This document shows, one piece after another, positions 8,177 to 43,031 of a stretch of DNA of 64,000 nucleotides; the stretch's first letter is position 1, and the number at the start of each line of letters is the position of its first letter. Source of the DNA: Citreicoccus inhibens (GTDB lineage Bacteria > Myxococcota > Myxococcia > Myxococcales > Myxococcaceae); assembly GCF_019039035.1 (NCBI RefSeq), contig NZ_JAHNZT010000004.1, positions 248,001 through 312,000 on the forward strand, in the 5' to 3' direction. The notes beneath the pieces are model-generated. The model saw only the letters and a list, made by a program, of their open reading frames with translations. It was not told the origin of the DNA and made no database searches. A program made the position numbers and the translations under genes.

Positions 8177-9970
8177 ATGCCCATGGCGCCCCCCACCTCT
8201 CAGTCCCCTGACTCCGAGTCGAAGCAGAAGGTGCGCGTCGCGCTCAACAGCGCGAACAAGCTCGTCGTCCGCGACGTGCCCAACATCATCGTGCTGGTGG
8301 GCGGCACCGTCGACCCCGGCAACATGGACACCGCAGCGCGCTCGGCCAGCTTCCATGACCCGAAGCTCGCCAGCAGCGCGCATGACCCCAACTGGTATTG
8401 GCAGGACAACCGTCCCTTCCGCGAGGCGCTGGATGCCCTGCGCAAGGACTACACGAACCTGCACCTCTTCACGATGCACGGGTGGAGCGGAGACAACAAC
8501 CCAGACAACCGGACCATCGCGGGCAGATACCTGGCGGATCGCCTCTGCGGCGGTGGCGGCGAAAAGCCGTACTACGCGGCCTTTCTCAACCGAGAGGTCT
8601 CCATCCACCTCATCGGCCACTCGCACGGCGGCAATGTCATCAATGAGTTCACCGAGCGGGCCGCCACGTCGAAGGAGTGGCCGAAGAAGTGGAAGATTCG
8701 CAGCATCACCTACCTGTCCACGCCCTTCTTCACGAAGATGCATCCGGTGAAGACAGGCGCGTTCAGCGACGCGTGCCACATCACCAACGTCTTCTGCAAA
8801 TACGACCTCACCCAGCGCGTGGTCGCAGACTTCTCGCTCATGCCGTTGCACGACGTCCTTCGCCAGAAGGGCAACTCGGACGCGCTCATGAAGGAGGTGC
8901 ATGGGCTCCACTTCGACATGGGCAAGCTGAACGCCGCGCTGATGTCCACGCGGCCCGTCGACAAGGACGACCGCTTCTGGCACATCGACCTGCACCTGCT
9001 GATGGACAAGGTGAAGGCGGAGCAGCTCTATGACGAGTCCCTCACGGCCATCGCCCAGCTCCGCAAGGTGTTCGACGCGGTGAGGGGACTGCTGCGCCAG
9101 TTCAACACGCCGCTACAGTTCCCCGTCGCCACGGAGCTCAAGGGCAAGCTCACGCATGAGCGCAAGGTGCTGAGCGACTCGCTCCTGGCCCGCTTCCTCG
9201 CGGAGCTGAAGACCGTGGAGAAGGGCATCGACCCCACGGAGAAGGCGCTCCGCGCCCGCCGCAAGAAGGGCGAGTACCCCGTGGGCGGGCTCTTCGATGA
9301 CCTGCACCTCGCCGACTTCCTGCAACCGCTCGTGCGCCTCATTGGCGTGGACCGGAAGACCTTGAATGGTCCGCTGTGGGCGCTCATCGGCTCGATGCTG
9401 GAGGAGCAGGTCGCGGAGTTCGACAACACGGTCACCTCGCCCGCCGCGCAGCTCAAGGCGACGAAGTTCGCCACGGCCATCACCCAGGTGGATGTCTCCA
9501 AGGAGGATGGGTACAGCCACCGGCACAAGGACGTCGAGTTCGGCCGGTTCATCTCGCGGCTGGAGGGAATCGAGAAGCGCTACGCCGTGGCGCCCGCGCT
9601 GCGCAATCCACGCGACCTGCGCGACCTGCTCTTCACCTTGCTCGCGCAGGTGGAGCCGCTGCGGCTGCTCGTGCAGAAGTGGGCCTCGGCCGCGGACTGG
9701 GCCGCTTCGCTGGCCACGTATGGGAGCAAGACGAAGTCTCCCGGCCTGCGCGTCCTCATCGACCTGGTGAACCACCTGGAGAGCTACTTCGTCATCGTCA
9801 GCGAGCGGAGCGCGGGCGGCCTCCAGGTGGATCAGCCGAAGGTCGATCCTCCCTATGGGAGCCTGGACTACTTGATGCGGGTGTCCCACTCCGTCAGCCG
9901 ACAGGACCTCTACCCTCCCGTGAAGGAGGCCCTGAAGAAGCAGCTCGACACGCGGCTGAAGCGAGGCTGA
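8177..9970 (+). CDS. Large alpha/beta-hydrolase (lipase-like) protein, candidate secreted effector
   Basis: This 597-residue protein lacks a signal peptide. The first 270 residues have the lipase arrangement: VPNIIVLVGGTVDP (34-47) as the first strand and oxyanion region, then IHLIGHSHGGNVINEF (143-158) with S149 as GxSxG nucleophile. HFDMGKLN and FWHIDLH further on may supply the histidine. Residues 280-597 are helical, charged and of no family I recognise. A cytoplasmic start, a GHSHGG lipase core, a long unknown tail and a LysM/PGB partner 14 bases upstream resemble phospholipase effector modules. No immunity gene is evident: the next gene is an aldo/keto reductase 119 bases on. Confidence 0.7.
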   Translation: MPMAPPTSQSPDSESKQKVRVALNSANKLVVRDVPNIIVLVGGTVDPGNMDTAARSASFHDPKLASSAHDPNWYWQDNRPFREALDALRKDYTNLHLFTMHGWSGDNNPDNRTIAGRYLADRLCGGGGEKPYYAAFLNREVSIHLIGHSHGGNVINEFTERAATSKEWPKKWKIRSITYLSTPFFTKMHPVKTGAFSDACHITNVFCKYDLTQRVVADFSLMPLHDVLRQKGNSDALMKEVHGLHFDMGKLNAALMSTRPVDKDDRFWHIDLHLLMDKVKAEQLYDESLTAIAQLRKVFDAVRGLLRQFNTPLQFPVATELKGKLTHERKVLSDSLLARFLAELKTVEKGIDPTEKALRARRKKGEYPVGGLFDDLHLADFLQPLVRLIGVDRKTLNGPLWALIGSMLEEQVAEFDNTVTSPAAQLKATKFATAITQVDVSKEDGYSHRHKDVEFGRFISRLEGIEKRYAVAPALRNPRDLRDLLFTLLAQVEPLRLLVQKWASAADWAASLATYGSKTKSPGLRVLIDLVNHLESYFVIVSERSAGGLQVDQPKVDPPYGSLDYLMRVSHSVSRQDLYPPVKEALKKQLDTRLKRG

Positions 9971-36581: not shown

Positions 36582-37298
36582 TCACGCCGGCGCGACGGCC
36601 TCGCCCTCGACCTCCAACCGATAGCCCACGCCTCGCACCGTCTGAAGACAGAAGCGCGACGCGCTGTTCCATCGCAGCTTACGCTTCAGGCTGGAGACGA
36701 AGTTGTCCACGGTGTGAGGGTCCACCACCACGTCCGCGCCCCACACCGCGTCGAGGATTTCATCGCGGCGCAGCGCGCGCTCCCGCTCGCGGATGAAGAA
36801 GGCCAGCAGGTCGAACTCCTTGCGCGTCAGCTCGATGGGCTCGCCCGAGGGGTGCTCCACCCGACGCCCGGCGAGGTCCAGCGTGTAGCCCGCGAACCGG
36901 ACCGTCTTCGCCTGCGCGCCTCCCGCCCGGCGCACCAGCGCCCCCACGCGCGCCAACAGCTCGCGCAGACGGTAGGGCTTGCCCAGGTAATCCTGCGCGC
37001 CGGACTCGAAGCCGCGCACCACGTCATCCTCCAGCGTTCGCGCGGTGAGCATCATCACAGGCACCGTCTCCCCCTCGTCCCGCAGGGCGCGGCACAGCGA
37101 ATAGCCATCCCCATCCGGGAGCATCACGTCCAGGAGGATGAGCTGGAAGGGGCGCCGGGACAGCTGTTCGCGGGCCTCGCGCACCGACGTCGCCTCCTCC
37201 ACGACATAGCCCCCCTGGTGCTCCAGGTTGTCGCGCAGCGCGAGCCGCAGATTCGGATCATCCTCGACGACGAGGATGGCGAGGGTTGATGCATTCAT
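36582..37298 (-). CDS. OmpR/PhoB-family response regulator
   Basis: This is a 238-residue regulator with a receiver domain (residues 6-120: VVEDDPNLRLAL, phosphoacceptor D57 in LILLDVMLPDGDGY, conserved K in YLGKPYRLREL) and a winged-helix trans_reg_C domain (IELTRKEFDLLAFFI, VDPHTVDNFVSSLKRKLR, QTVRGVGYRL). The gene begins one base after the stop of the histidine kinase gene, so the two are a cognate pair. Proteins of this class bind direct repeats spaced by about 11 bp; such an element lies upstream of the operon at 41442-41462. Confidence 0.95.
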   Translation of the reverse strand: MNASTLAILVVEDDPNLRLALRDNLEHQGGYVVEEATSVREAREQLSRRPFQLILLDVMLPDGDGYSLCRALRDEGETVPVMMLTARTLEDDVVRGFESGAQDYLGKPYRLRELLARVGALVRRAGGAQAKTVRFAGYTLDLAGRRVEHPSGEPIELTRKEFDLLAFFIRERERALRRDEILDAVWGADVVVDPHTVDNFVSSLKRKLRWNSASRFCLQTVRGVGYRLEVEGEAVAPA

Positions 37299-37299
37299 G

Positions 37300-39123
<1,824 letters not shown>

Positions 39124-39135
39124 GCGGAGGGAGAC

Positions 39136-41367
39136 CTACTTGATGCGGGGGGCGCGGTCGAAGTCCATTCCGCGAACGGGGACGATGGACTCGAAGCGGT
39201 CGTCGCGCTTGTCGAGCGAGCGGGTGGTCCGGATGAGCGCCCCCAGCGTCTTCACGTCAGGGCGATCCTTCAAGGCGGGGCCCAATCCCTCCCAGAGCAC
39301 GATGAGGCGGTCATAGGTCAGCGGGCGAATCCAGTACGAACCGCGCAGCTTCTCGGCGAACGCCGCCGCCACGTAGGCCAGACGTGTCACGGGAGCGGCG
39401 CTTTCATATGAGGACCGCATGGCCTCGGCCGGGAGCTGGACCTCCAGTGGCTTCGAGGAGCCGCCATCTGGCGCCTTGAAGCGAATGCGGAACTTCCCCA
39501 GCGGCAGGGAGGGCGTGCGGAGCTGCACCTCGTAGAGGGCGGTCACTTCATGGCCCGCCCCCACCTCGCCGGCATCCACCTTGTCGTCGGTGAACTCCTG
39601 CCGCGTCAGGGCCCGGTTCTCATAACCAATCAAGCGGTAGCGAGACACGACCGAGCGGTCGAACTCCACCTGGAACTTCACATCCTTGGCCACGACCTGG
39701 AGCATGCCCGTGAGGTTCTGCACGAAGATGCGCCGCGCCTCCTCCAGCCGGTCCACGTAGGCGTAGTTGCCCTCCCCCACCTGGGCCAGGCGCTCCATCA
39801 GGACGTCGTTGTAGTGGCCCATGCCGAAGCCCACCGTGGAGAGCGTGATGCCCTGGGCCGCCTGGTCCTTCACGCGAGCCCAGATGCCATCCGCGTCGGT
39901 GACGCCGTTGTTCGCCACGCCGTCCGAGCAGAGGATGATGCGGTTGATGCCGCCCTCCACCCGGTTGCGCGCCGCCAGGGCATAGCCCAGCTCCAGGCCC
40001 GCCTGAGCGTTGGTGGAGCCACCAATGGACACCGAGTTGATGGCGGCGTGCAGCGGCTGCTTCTCGGTGGCGGCCGTGGGCGCGAGGACCTCCCGCGCCT
40101 CACTTCCATACGCGACGATGGAGATCCGGTCGCGCGCGTCGAGCGCGTCCACCAGCAAGTGCAGCGCGCGCTTCACGAGCCCCAGTCGCTCGCTGCCATC
40201 CATGGACCCCGAGACATCGATGACGAAGACCAGATGGCTCGGCTTGCGCTCCGCGGCGCGGACCTCCGGCGCCTTCACGCCGATGCGAAGGACCCGGTAG
40301 CCAAAGCGCGCGGGAGACGGAAAGCCCTCCACGCTCACCGTGAACGGCACATCCCCTCCGTTGACATAGCCATACTCGAACGCGTTGACGAACTCCTCGA
40401 CCCGCACGGCGCGCTCGTCGGGGAGCGCGGACCGCTCGAGATAGGCGCGGGTGAGCGAGTACGACGCCGTATCAGTATCCACCGAGAAGGTGGAGAAGCG
40501 CTGCTCCTCCGTGTCCACGGTGGGATTCACGCCGTAGCCCTTGAAGTACATGTCACTCAAGGGCGGGGGCGCAGACACCGGCTCGGAGTGACTGGCCGCG
40601 GGTTCGCTGGGACGCGGCGCACGGAACACGGTCTGCGGCGTGCCATCCGGAATCACCACCGGCATGAGCGGCACGGCCCAATCCGGCGCGGCGTCACGAC
40701 TGCTGTTGCTGCCCTGAGGGCCGTCACTGTCCGTCGCAGTGTTCACCCCGATGAGGCCCTCGAACCGACGGTCGGGGTTCCAGGCAGGCGGAGGAAGGAG
40801 AGGCCCCTTTCCATTGATCCCGTAACCAGGGTCGCTCGGACTCAGCCCCGAGAGCCAATCCTCGGCCAGCATCCCATCGCTCTGCCCATGCGACCCGCTC
40901 CGAGGGACTCGAACCACGGCGATTCGATTGATGAGATCCTGGTCCACATCCACCCCCTGGCCGCGCACAGCACCCACGTCCTCCGTGGGGGCCTCGGCAC
41001 GTGGGGACGTTGCGGGGATGGGCGTCAGCGCGATGTCGACTCGGACGACGCGGCCCGCTCGCAGGTCCACGCCCGTTCGCTCCGCCACCGCGAAGCCCTC
41101 CTTCTCCAAGCGGAGGGAGTAGGCCCCCGGCGGCAGCTGAGGGATTCGATAGTCGCCCTTGGCGTTCGTCACCACGGTCTGGGCGCTCACCGTGCTGGGC
41201 GAAGTCGCGACAATGACGACGCCCGGCTCCCCGTTCGGGTTCAACTCGCTACGGACCTTCCCCAGCAGGACGCATGACGCGGCCCGACCCGCCTCGCCCT
41301 CAGCCCAGGCGGGCGAGACGAAGAGCAAGAGCCACGCACACAGGGCACTTCGAAACACGAACCTCAT
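39136..41367 (-). CDS. Exported von Willebrand factor A (YfbK-like) protein with regulatory-like N-domain
   Basis: This is a 743-residue exported protein with signal peptide 1-22. Residues 30-115 form a carboxypeptidase-regulatory-like beta-sandwich (NAKGDYRIPQLPPGAYSLRL), followed by a disordered linker to about 270. Residues 271-360 form the vWF-N module (DTEEQRFSTFSVDTDTASYS), the vWA domain follows at about 378-560 with an intact MIDAS (D384-V-S-G-S, VSIGGSTNAQAGL, LCSDG), and a DUF3520-type C-terminal domain extends to 735. YfbK-like proteins are periplasmic or surface adhesion/binding proteins of unknown role. The histidine kinase gene starts 12 bases on. ATG 41367 places Met at the signal peptide. 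Confidence 0.9.
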   Translation of the reverse strand: MRFVFRSALCAWLLLFVSPAWAEGEAGRAASCVLLGKVRSELNPNGEPGVVIVATSPSTVSAQTVVTNAKGDYRIPQLPPGAYSLRLEKEGFAVAERTGVDLRAGRVVRVDIALTPIPATSPRAEAPTEDVGAVRGQGVDVDQDLINRIAVVRVPRSGSHGQSDGMLAEDWLSGLSPSDPGYGINGKGPLLPPPAWNPDRRFEGLIGVNTATDSDGPQGSNSSRDAAPDWAVPLMPVVIPDGTPQTVFRAPRPSEPAASHSEPVSAPPPLSDMYFKGYGVNPTVDTEEQRFSTFSVDTDTASYSLTRAYLERSALPDERAVRVEEFVNAFEYGYVNGGDVPFTVSVEGFPSPARFGYRVLRIGVKAPEVRAAERKPSHLVFVIDVSGSMDGSERLGLVKRALHLLVDALDARDRISIVAYGSEAREVLAPTAATEKQPLHAAINSVSIGGSTNAQAGLELGYALAARNRVEGGINRIILCSDGVANNGVTDADGIWARVKDQAAQGITLSTVGFGMGHYNDVLMERLAQVGEGNYAYVDRLEEARRIFVQNLTGMLQVVAKDVKFQVEFDRSVVSRYRLIGYENRALTRQEFTDDKVDAGEVGAGHEVTALYEVQLRTPSLPLGKFRIRFKAPDGGSSKPLEVQLPAEAMRSSYESAAPVTRLAYVAAAFAEKLRGSYWIRPLTYDRLIVLWEGLGPALKDRPDVKTLGALIRTTRSLDKRDDRFESIVPVRGMDFDRAPRIK

Positions 41368-41441
41368 CGGGGCAACCTCAGCGAGCCGGGAGGAGGGCAT
41401 CATCCCGGTCACGCCCACAGCAAACCGCATGTGCACCTCTC

Positions 41442-41462
41442 CACTTCATCATCGTTTCATCA
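41442..41462 (-). promoter_or_regulatory. 21-bp element, putative OmpR-family operator (copy 1)
   Basis: On the minus strand two TGATGAA half-sites lie 11 bp apart (TGATGAA-ACGA-TGATGAA), the spacing used by OmpR/PhoB-type regulators. The element lies 75 bases upstream of the vWA-kinase-regulator operon. An identical 21-bp copy is at 42760-42780. Confidence 0.5.
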
Positions 41463-41599
41463 CGGGTGGCATCGATGATGTGGGCGCGGACGAAGACAGC
41501 CCGCTCCAGGCGTGCAGCCGAGCAGTGCCGCAGCTCTGAACGCGCGACCCGGGCTCTCAGCGCTCGGGCGGCGTCCCTCGAATCGGTCGGGGCTCGCGC

Positions 41600-41755
41600 T
41601 CAGTCGCGCGCGGCCCACAGGTCGGCAGCGGAGAGGGTGAAGTCGCTCTTGCCGTCCGCGTCCACCCACTCGACCGATGTCCCGCCGTACCGGAGCACGG
41701 GCCTCAGTTCGCGCTCCAGTCGCCGATAGGTGAACGTCGGTGACATAGGGAGCAT
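41600..41755 (-). CDS. Possible 51-residue small protein
   Basis: A short open frame starts at ATG 41755, four bases after GGAGGT, and ends at TGA 41600. It reads LPMSPTFTYRRLERELRPVL and WVDADGKSDFTLSAADLWAA, with codon bias like the neighbours. It could be a genuine small cytosolic protein or the 3' remnant of a larger gene, since the flanking DNA holds other debris. No family is recognised. Confidence 0.35.
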   Translation of the reverse strand: MLPMSPTFTYRRLERELRPVLRYGGTSVEWVDADGKSDFTLSAADLWAARD

Positions 41756-41819
41756 CCAAACCTCCGCGCGCGTCGTCTCTCCATGAAGACCCCACGGTAC
41801 CGTTCATCCAGTTCGACGG

Positions 41820-42597
41820 CTACGGAGTGGCGTCCCAGCCGCGACGTCGCCACGAGAGGAACTCAAGAATCAGCGGCGCAGGGCCTGAAAGGGAAAGGCA
41901 GTCGGCGTAGGGGGCGGAATCAGAAGCAGGGTGCGTCGTGATGATGCGGACCCCACGCACCTCTTGGGCGGTTGAGCCCAATGGGCAGCATGGGCCGTCG
42001 CCAATCCAGTAGTGCGTGGGAGGCGCAGTAGCGACTGCACCCGAGAGGACGAACGCTCTCTCCGCGCTCGCAATGGGCCACCTCGAGCCACCCCCGGAGG
42101 TAGCTGCGACCTTCACGCCATTGGCCCAATCACACTCATTTCCTACATGAAAAGAGCGACATATCCCCTGCAACTTGCCGCTGTTCAGCTCACGAGGCAC
42201 CAAGACCTTTCCCACACCCGGATACGTCTCGAGGGGCACACCCATACGAGCGACGGGCTTGGATGCCCAGAGCACGACCTTCCGAAGATATTGAGGACGC
42301 GGAGTGGCTTGAGCATCCGGGCCACATCAACCTGAGGCCCAACCAGGGCGGCGCCACGTCTCTGCGCCGCACCCAGTTGGGCCTCAGACCCAACGCCGAC
42401 CTGACGAATGCCTTGAAGCCCCCTCGCCCCTCCCTCACGGAGTGATCGCCCCCTCGGCGACTCCGTGATGACGTCCACCTGCTTCGCATTCGCCTCCGTG
42501 CGCCGCTCCCCTCCAAGGACTGGGAGAACACGCACAGAGCCCCAACGAGCGACTGCTTCAGCTCGTCACTGACCACCGTTCCCTCGGTACTCGCCAT
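41820..42597 (-). pseudogene. Frameshifted hypothetical gene
   Basis: From ATG 42597 a plausible start (ASTEGTVVSDELKQSLVGAL) can be followed on the minus strand only by changing frame at about 42500 (GERRTEANAKQVDVITE, then VDVARMLKPLRVLNIF) and again near 42270 (ASKPVARMGVPLETYPGVGK to CRSFHVGNECDWANGVKV and onward to TAG at 41820). The pieces have protein-like composition, lower GC than the neighbours and several cysteines. I do not recognise a family. Either this is a decaying acquired gene or the assembly has small errors here. Confidence 0.45.
42332..42387. repeat. Perfect 11-bp inverted repeat inside the pseudogene
   Basis: CTGAGGCCCAA (42332-42342) and TTGGGCCTCAG (42377-42387) are exact complements separated by 34 bases, within the frameshifted gene. 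Confidence 0.6.
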
Positions 42598-43031
42598 TCA
42601 TCCAGACAGCAGCTCGGCACGACACCGCATGGAGCCGCCGCCCTCAGTCGCGGACCACTCCAACGGATGCACATGCGGAGCTTCAGGACGAACACCTCGG
42701 TGCAGGTGATGTCGCATCATTCGCAGACTCACCTCGCCCGTGCCTCACGAGGACATCGTCACTTCATCATCGTTTCATCATGATGGGACCGGACGTCGGG
42801 GAGTGAGCGTCCGCAGCATGGACGCGCCGCGCCCAGGTGCCGCCGCGGACTCTCGCGACATCACAGCGTGCTCCACTCAGCGTCTGTCTTTGGGCCGCGC
42901 CTCGGCGAATCTTCCATGCCGTGATGCCGCGTGGCAGCTTTGCAGGAAAGAACGAAGCTATCAACTTGCGCGTGCGTTCCGTACTTCTGCGTGCGACCGG
43001 GCTCCTCCGGTCTCATCCAGGAGACACGCCA
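42598..43031. other. 434-bp stretch without a gene, holding the second copy of the 21-bp element
   Basis: Frames through this stretch have no convincing start or codon bias, apart from in-frame read-in to the hydrolase gene at 43032. It contains the 21-bp element at 42760-42780 and presumably the hydrolase promoter. Nothing else was recognised. Confidence 0.5.
42760..42780 (-). promoter_or_regulatory. 21-bp element, identical to 41442-41462 (copy 2)
   Basis: This is an exact second copy, in the same orientation, of the two-half-site element (TGATGAA twice at an 11-bp period). It lies 163 bases upstream of the frameshifted gene on the minus strand and 252 bases ahead of the hydrolase on the plus strand. 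Bases outside the 21 do not match. Confidence 0.5.

Follow-up and report, generated by a model that had tools for sequence, protein, structure and literature searches.

What is the function of a 21-bp sequence that occurs twice upstream of a two-component operon in Citreicoccus inhibens? We addressed this question in a 64,000-nt stretch of DNA (the window), in which one and the same sequence, without a change of orientation, occurs at positions 41442-41462 and 42760-42780, as direct comparison of the letters confirmed. The initial annotation had also recognized in each copy two TGATGAA half-sites with an 11-bp period, the geometry of OmpR/PhoB-type regulators, and this observation holds, including in relatives, where the spacer length is kept. 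On the minus strand, which is the strand of the operon, the core of the site reads TGATGAA-ACGA-TGATGAA at 41445-41462 (copy 1, which stands before the operon and is proposed to be bound by a dimer of the regulator), and the same 18 bases are found at 42763-42780 (copy 2, ahead of a decayed gene). The element, TGATGAA-ACSA-TGATGAA, is a 7+4+7 direct repeat and thus has the direct repeat of ~7 bp and the ~11-bp period of an OmpR/PhoB-family DNA site; for this family, 7-bp direct repeats with a 4-bp spacer have been described (PMC4832192). In the following, we refer to the element as the class-1 site and to the regulator of the window operon as RR1.

The element and the operon behind copy 1

With a pattern of 14 fixed bases and up to two mismatches, two core matches were found in the window, compared with a mean of 0.07 in 100 shuffled windows, none of which (0/100) reached two. 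The genome-wide search for TGATGAA-N4-TGATGAA that the initial annotation had proposed returned three exact half-site pairs in the 9.05 Mb of the own genome, all three with the spacer ACGA, which is present in 0/14 of the two-mismatch matches. Exactly one further copy of the 21-mer exists outside the window, on another contig, upstream of an unlinked gene whose product combines a CarboxypepD_reg domain with a TonB-dependent receptor barrel. Since the four spacer bases are kept along with the half-sites, we abandoned a broader, OmpR-only reading that leaves the spacer free.

A distance of 75 bp, in agreement with the value given previously, separates the end of the copy 1 core from the probable start codon of the operon's first gene, at position 41370; this start was placed on the basis of a signal peptide and a ribosome-binding site. 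All genes of the operon are on the minus strand, in the order YfbK-type gene, histidine kinase and OmpR/PhoB-type regulator. According to Pfam, the first gene (39136-41370) encodes a secreted YfbK-type protein with CarboxypepD_reg, vWF_A, VWA and YfbK_C domains, and the second (37300-39123) the histidine kinase HK1 with HisKA and HATPase_c domains, whose nearest NCBIfam profiles, PnpS/PhoR, scored below cut-off. The third gene encodes RR1 (36582-37298), which belongs to the OmpR/PhoB family by its receiver domain (PF00072, E = 5e-28) and its Trans_reg_C winged helix (PF00486, E = 3.5e-23; Pfam), with the recognition helix DPH195TVDNFVSSLK. Asp57, within LILLDVML, is the predicted phosphorylation site. 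The best NCBIfam profile for RR1 is PhoB, at 190.5 bits against a cut-off of 296.2, so that RR1 does not qualify as a PhoB orthologue.

Conservation of the site and its occurrence together with RR1

Among 96 genomes of the family, we found 49 RR1 orthologues, with at least 78% identity among the matches listed and at most 68% in the next group. A recognizable site precedes the first gene in 49/49 of the orthologous operons (CPD/YfbK protein, kinase, regulator). Records of named species of Corallococcus, Pyxidicoccus and Myxococcus, M. xanthus AM003 among them, also show sites before the operon. For at least 41 of the 49 orthologues, the site has no more than two mismatches and is found on the strand of the regulator gene, 3.2-5.7 kb upstream of it, against an expectation of 0.045 (genomes after G071 were covered by the site list with at most one mismatch). 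In G000 and G001, such sites stand ahead of the decayed gene, too. At the remaining eight loci, five have sites with two or three mismatches (L098, L099, L101, L103 and L107) and three have the weaker variant TGACGGAACCGTGATGAT in the same place (L100, L105 and L106). In several g19 operons (G057, G058, G060, G061, G069, G071 and G072), all sites are degenerate. The genes of the relatives were called by a simple GC3-based script rather than a trained gene finder.

The distribution of the site follows that of RR1. Near-exact sites, defined by one mismatch to TGATGAAACSATGATGAA, were present in 42 of the 49 family genomes with RR1 versus 1 of the 47 without it (G032), counts that are restricted to the 96 family genomes and, like those for conservation, are not independent, as orthologous leaders share descent. 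Within genus g5, the site was found in 14/14 genomes with RR1 and, even at two mismatches, in neither of the two genomes without RR1 (G024 and G026). The order-wide search matched 43 of 145 genomes, all within the family; near-exact sites occurred in 0/49 of the order's genomes from other families, which were searched for the site alone. A separate observation concerns a record titled Comamonas sp. KCTC 72670 (L192, BNCN01000012.1), which encodes a Myxococcaceae-type RR1 of 81% identity with a perfect class-1 site upstream; this record looks mislabelled or contaminated.

Genes downstream of the site

When at most one mismatch was allowed, the element was found at 40 places, corresponding to 38 distinct sites after near-identical ones had been merged. 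At 34 of these 38, a CarboxypepD_reg-type sequence follows downstream on the same strand; none (0/38) has one downstream on the opposite strand, and none (0/38) has one upstream of the site. Four sites depart from this rule: two are the copies before the decayed gene, one precedes a receptor that lacks the CarboxypepD_reg domain (L049), and one, a near-exact class-1-like site in G060 (L069, at 11257), stands before an unrelated, non-CPD gene. The architectures of the targets vary and comprise YfbK/VWA proteins, receptor-like barrels and short CarboxypepD_reg proteins. In the own genome, the site occurs at only 2 of 24 CarboxypepD_reg loci, so the regulon is narrow, and the unlinked copy supports an extension of the predicted regulon beyond the window to a CarboxypepD_reg/TonB-receptor gene. 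In all likelihood, the element marks a small set of genes for cell-surface proteins that are predicted to be controlled by RR1 together with its own operon.

A paralogous regulator with a related site

The own genome encodes a second such system, RR2-HK2 (C55:54962-55639), whose regulator is a paralogue with 62-66% identity to RR1 in the loci compared. Repeat geometry and site-to-promoter spacing are the same as for RR1, but the half-site is TGACGAA instead of TGATGAA, and the class-2 site (in most cases TGACGAA-ACCA-TGACGAA) starts right where the RR2 gene ends, before a TonB-protein gene. In 41 of 65 RR2 genes, it falls between -12 and +10 bases relative to the RR2 match end, a descriptive count, as the class-2 pattern was partly derived from the same loci. 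In G003, the class-2 site is 3.5 kb away from RR2, yet before the TonB gene, and this arrangement indicates that the site belongs to the TonB gene and not to the coding end of RR2. Class-2 sites with a TAnnTT motif at the usual offset were also seen before genes of beta-lactamase-family serine hydrolases (L157 and L159) and before a gene for a YfbK/VWA-like lipoprotein (L175).

The recognition helix starts with D-P-His-T in all aligned RR1 and with D-P-Arg-T in all RR2 proteins; residue 195 changes from His to Arg, and base 4 changes from T to C in both half-sites. As read from the match ranges, residue 195 of RR1 aligns with Asn212 of Mycobacterium tuberculosis PhoP, which hydrogen-bonds to C7, base 4 of the 7-bp motif, in the PhoP-DNA complex (PMC4832192). 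It is at base 4, too, that the sites of RR1 and RR2 differ. At three g4 loci with a D-T-His-T helix, TGAAGAA-like repeats are located upstream (L117 and, weaker, L118 and L120). The half-sites diverge in step with the recognition helix, a match that we regard as a prediction rather than proof because independent events are few, namely the split of the paralogues and the weaker g4 case. We tentatively suggest that RR1 and RR2 may be a duplicated pair insulated by a switch of one residue and one base (His195/T4 versus Arg195/C4, in both half-sites), with a third state, Thr194-His195/TGAAGAA, in g4, and that the class-1 promoter may have been inherited together with an N-terminal CarboxypepD_reg module before otherwise different surface proteins; this scenario appears possible, if somewhat short of probable.

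Position of the site relative to a candidate promoter

For the promoter counts, sites more than 85% alike were merged (33 to 19 for class-2, 70 to 41 for class-1). Of the 19 class-2 sites, 14 have TAnnTT at offset 58 from the start of the site, and within offsets 18-64 the motif takes no other position. In class-1, [GA]ATGAT occurs at offset 58-59 in 11 of 41 sites and nowhere else in the range 18-64, leaving 30/41 sites without a candidate -10 element. In the window, the candidate -10 elements would be GATGAT at 41399-41404 for copy 1 (offset 58-63, the same as that of the class-2 TAnnTT) and AATGAT at 42716-42721 for copy 2 (offset 59-64), both on the minus strand. If [GA]ATGAT is the -10 element, the centre of the site would be ~61 bp upstream of the transcription start. 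Activators that contact RNA polymerase from the upstream side typically bind at such a position, which makes activation the likelier sign.

Alternative explanations for the element and its second copy

Strong hairpins just after the site in some leaders (L022, L030, L034, L038 and L047) raised the question of whether the element belongs to a structured RNA leader or to another RNA regulator of the downstream genes. These hairpins are not conserved, and folding of the alignment gave five predicted pairs, none of which showed a compensatory change. Folding z-scores against shuffles were modest in 15 of 16 leaders (the exception, L020, reached -3.84), a search of Rfam returned no fitting family and one match at chance level, and the repeat of the paralogue lies upstream of a promoter-like TAnnTT. 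The RNA reading was dropped because its pairs lack compensation, the shuffle controls are weak and the Rfam match is at chance level, and we consider it most improbable. The second copy, 1.3 kb further upstream than copy 1, suggested another alternative, already contained in the initial annotation, according to which the copies would be the direct repeats at the two ends of a 1.3-kb insertion; identical direct copies indeed flank a stretch with a decayed gene. This stretch (41463-42762, minus strand) is without a recognizable domain: Pfam recognized none in the three open frames scanned, and no match was found among the 699 proteins called in the relatives' loci L048-L148 except that of a frame in the sister species G001 with itself. 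An insertion is nevertheless hardly credible, since G001 carries copy 2 at the same place with one base changed and has partly different material between the copies, the third copy in the own genome is unlinked to the window locus, many copies in relatives likewise precede unlinked genes, and the sites of several genera share one orientation at gene starts. A clean empty site with one copy was not found in close relatives; other genera have a single copy at the same locus, and in some g19 genomes two copies occur, with a separate CPD-type gene behind each. In G001, copy 2 is followed by an aligned and likewise broken stretch (82% over 719 positions), which argues for a decayed gene plus its promoter rather than a recent insertion. 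The suggestion that the second copy adds a neighbouring gene to the regulon needs amending: copy 2 would be the leftover promoter of a proposed target, and as the gene behind it is decayed, its present role is doubtful. Two further features were noticed here: a gene in G001 (L056) between the sites at 9596 and 11215 that is MarR-like by eye and absent from the window, and a perfect 12-nt inverted repeat in the decayed stretch (42332-42343 and 42376-42387, 32 nt apart).

It could also be that a different transcription factor binds the element and controls the operon together with the other CarboxypepD_reg genes, with RR1 as just a downstream member of the regulon, because RR1 is tied to the site by co-distribution alone. 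We regard this as unlikely: next to its own gene, the paralogue RR2 has a site related to that of RR1, the single base that differs goes along with a change in the very residue predicted to read it, and RR1 and the site are both missing from two g5 genomes. The comparison of genomes strongly supports autoregulation by the operon's own OmpR-type regulator, the reading preferred from the outset, as the site is kept in all 49 operons, is co-distributed with RR1 and has half-sites that vary with the recognition helix. Thus, the 21-bp element very probably is a direct-repeat binding site through which RR1 would activate its own operon and an unlinked target, with copy 2 as a leftover promoter.

Proposed mechanism and comparison with known systems

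We propose that RR1 is phosphorylated by its own kinase, HK1, and that phosphorylated RR1 would bind the repeat as a head-to-tail dimer. Centred ~61 bp upstream of the presumed start, this dimer would switch on the promoter of the operon that yields the YfbK-type protein, the kinase and the regulator itself, and it would likewise activate the unlinked CarboxypepD_reg/TonB-receptor gene. Copy 2 may be what is left of the promoter of a third, now decayed target gene.

By analogy, this mechanism would resemble that of PhoB and the pho box or of PhoP and its repeat (PMC4832192). The pho box of E. coli, CTGTCAT(A/T)4CTGTCAT (PMC4832192), is likewise a 7-bp direct repeat with a 4-bp spacer read by a regulator of the same family, but its half-site is another one, and the targets found here are surface proteins and not phosphate genes. 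In the PhoP-DNA complex of M. tuberculosis (PDB 5ED4), a tandem dimer occupies 7-bp repeats with a strict 4-bp spacer (PMC4832192). The repeat geometry is shared, and Asn212, the reader of the central base, has its counterpart in His195 of RR1, but the PhoP motif is TCACAGC, and RR1 has His and RR2 Arg at this position. On the side of the targets, Oar of Myxococcus xanthus is a TonB-dependent transporter, and such transporters have been classed by their N-terminal domains, including CarboxypepD_reg (PMC6434023). The class with CarboxypepD_reg plus transporter has the domain combination of the unlinked target, a likeness at the level of domains; in contrast to the situation here, the available part of that paper names no such regulator (PMC6434023).

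A search of open-licence papers returned no description of this site or two-component system. By genome comparison, a myxobacterial two-component system can now be given, as predictions, a DNA site and two targets, its own operon and an unlinked gene. RR1 and RR2 with their related sites constitute a natural experiment on the change of specificity in OmpR/PhoB regulators, in which the pairing of regulator and site is predicted by a single residue and a single base. A reporter based on the site would provide a route to the signal sensed by the kinase.
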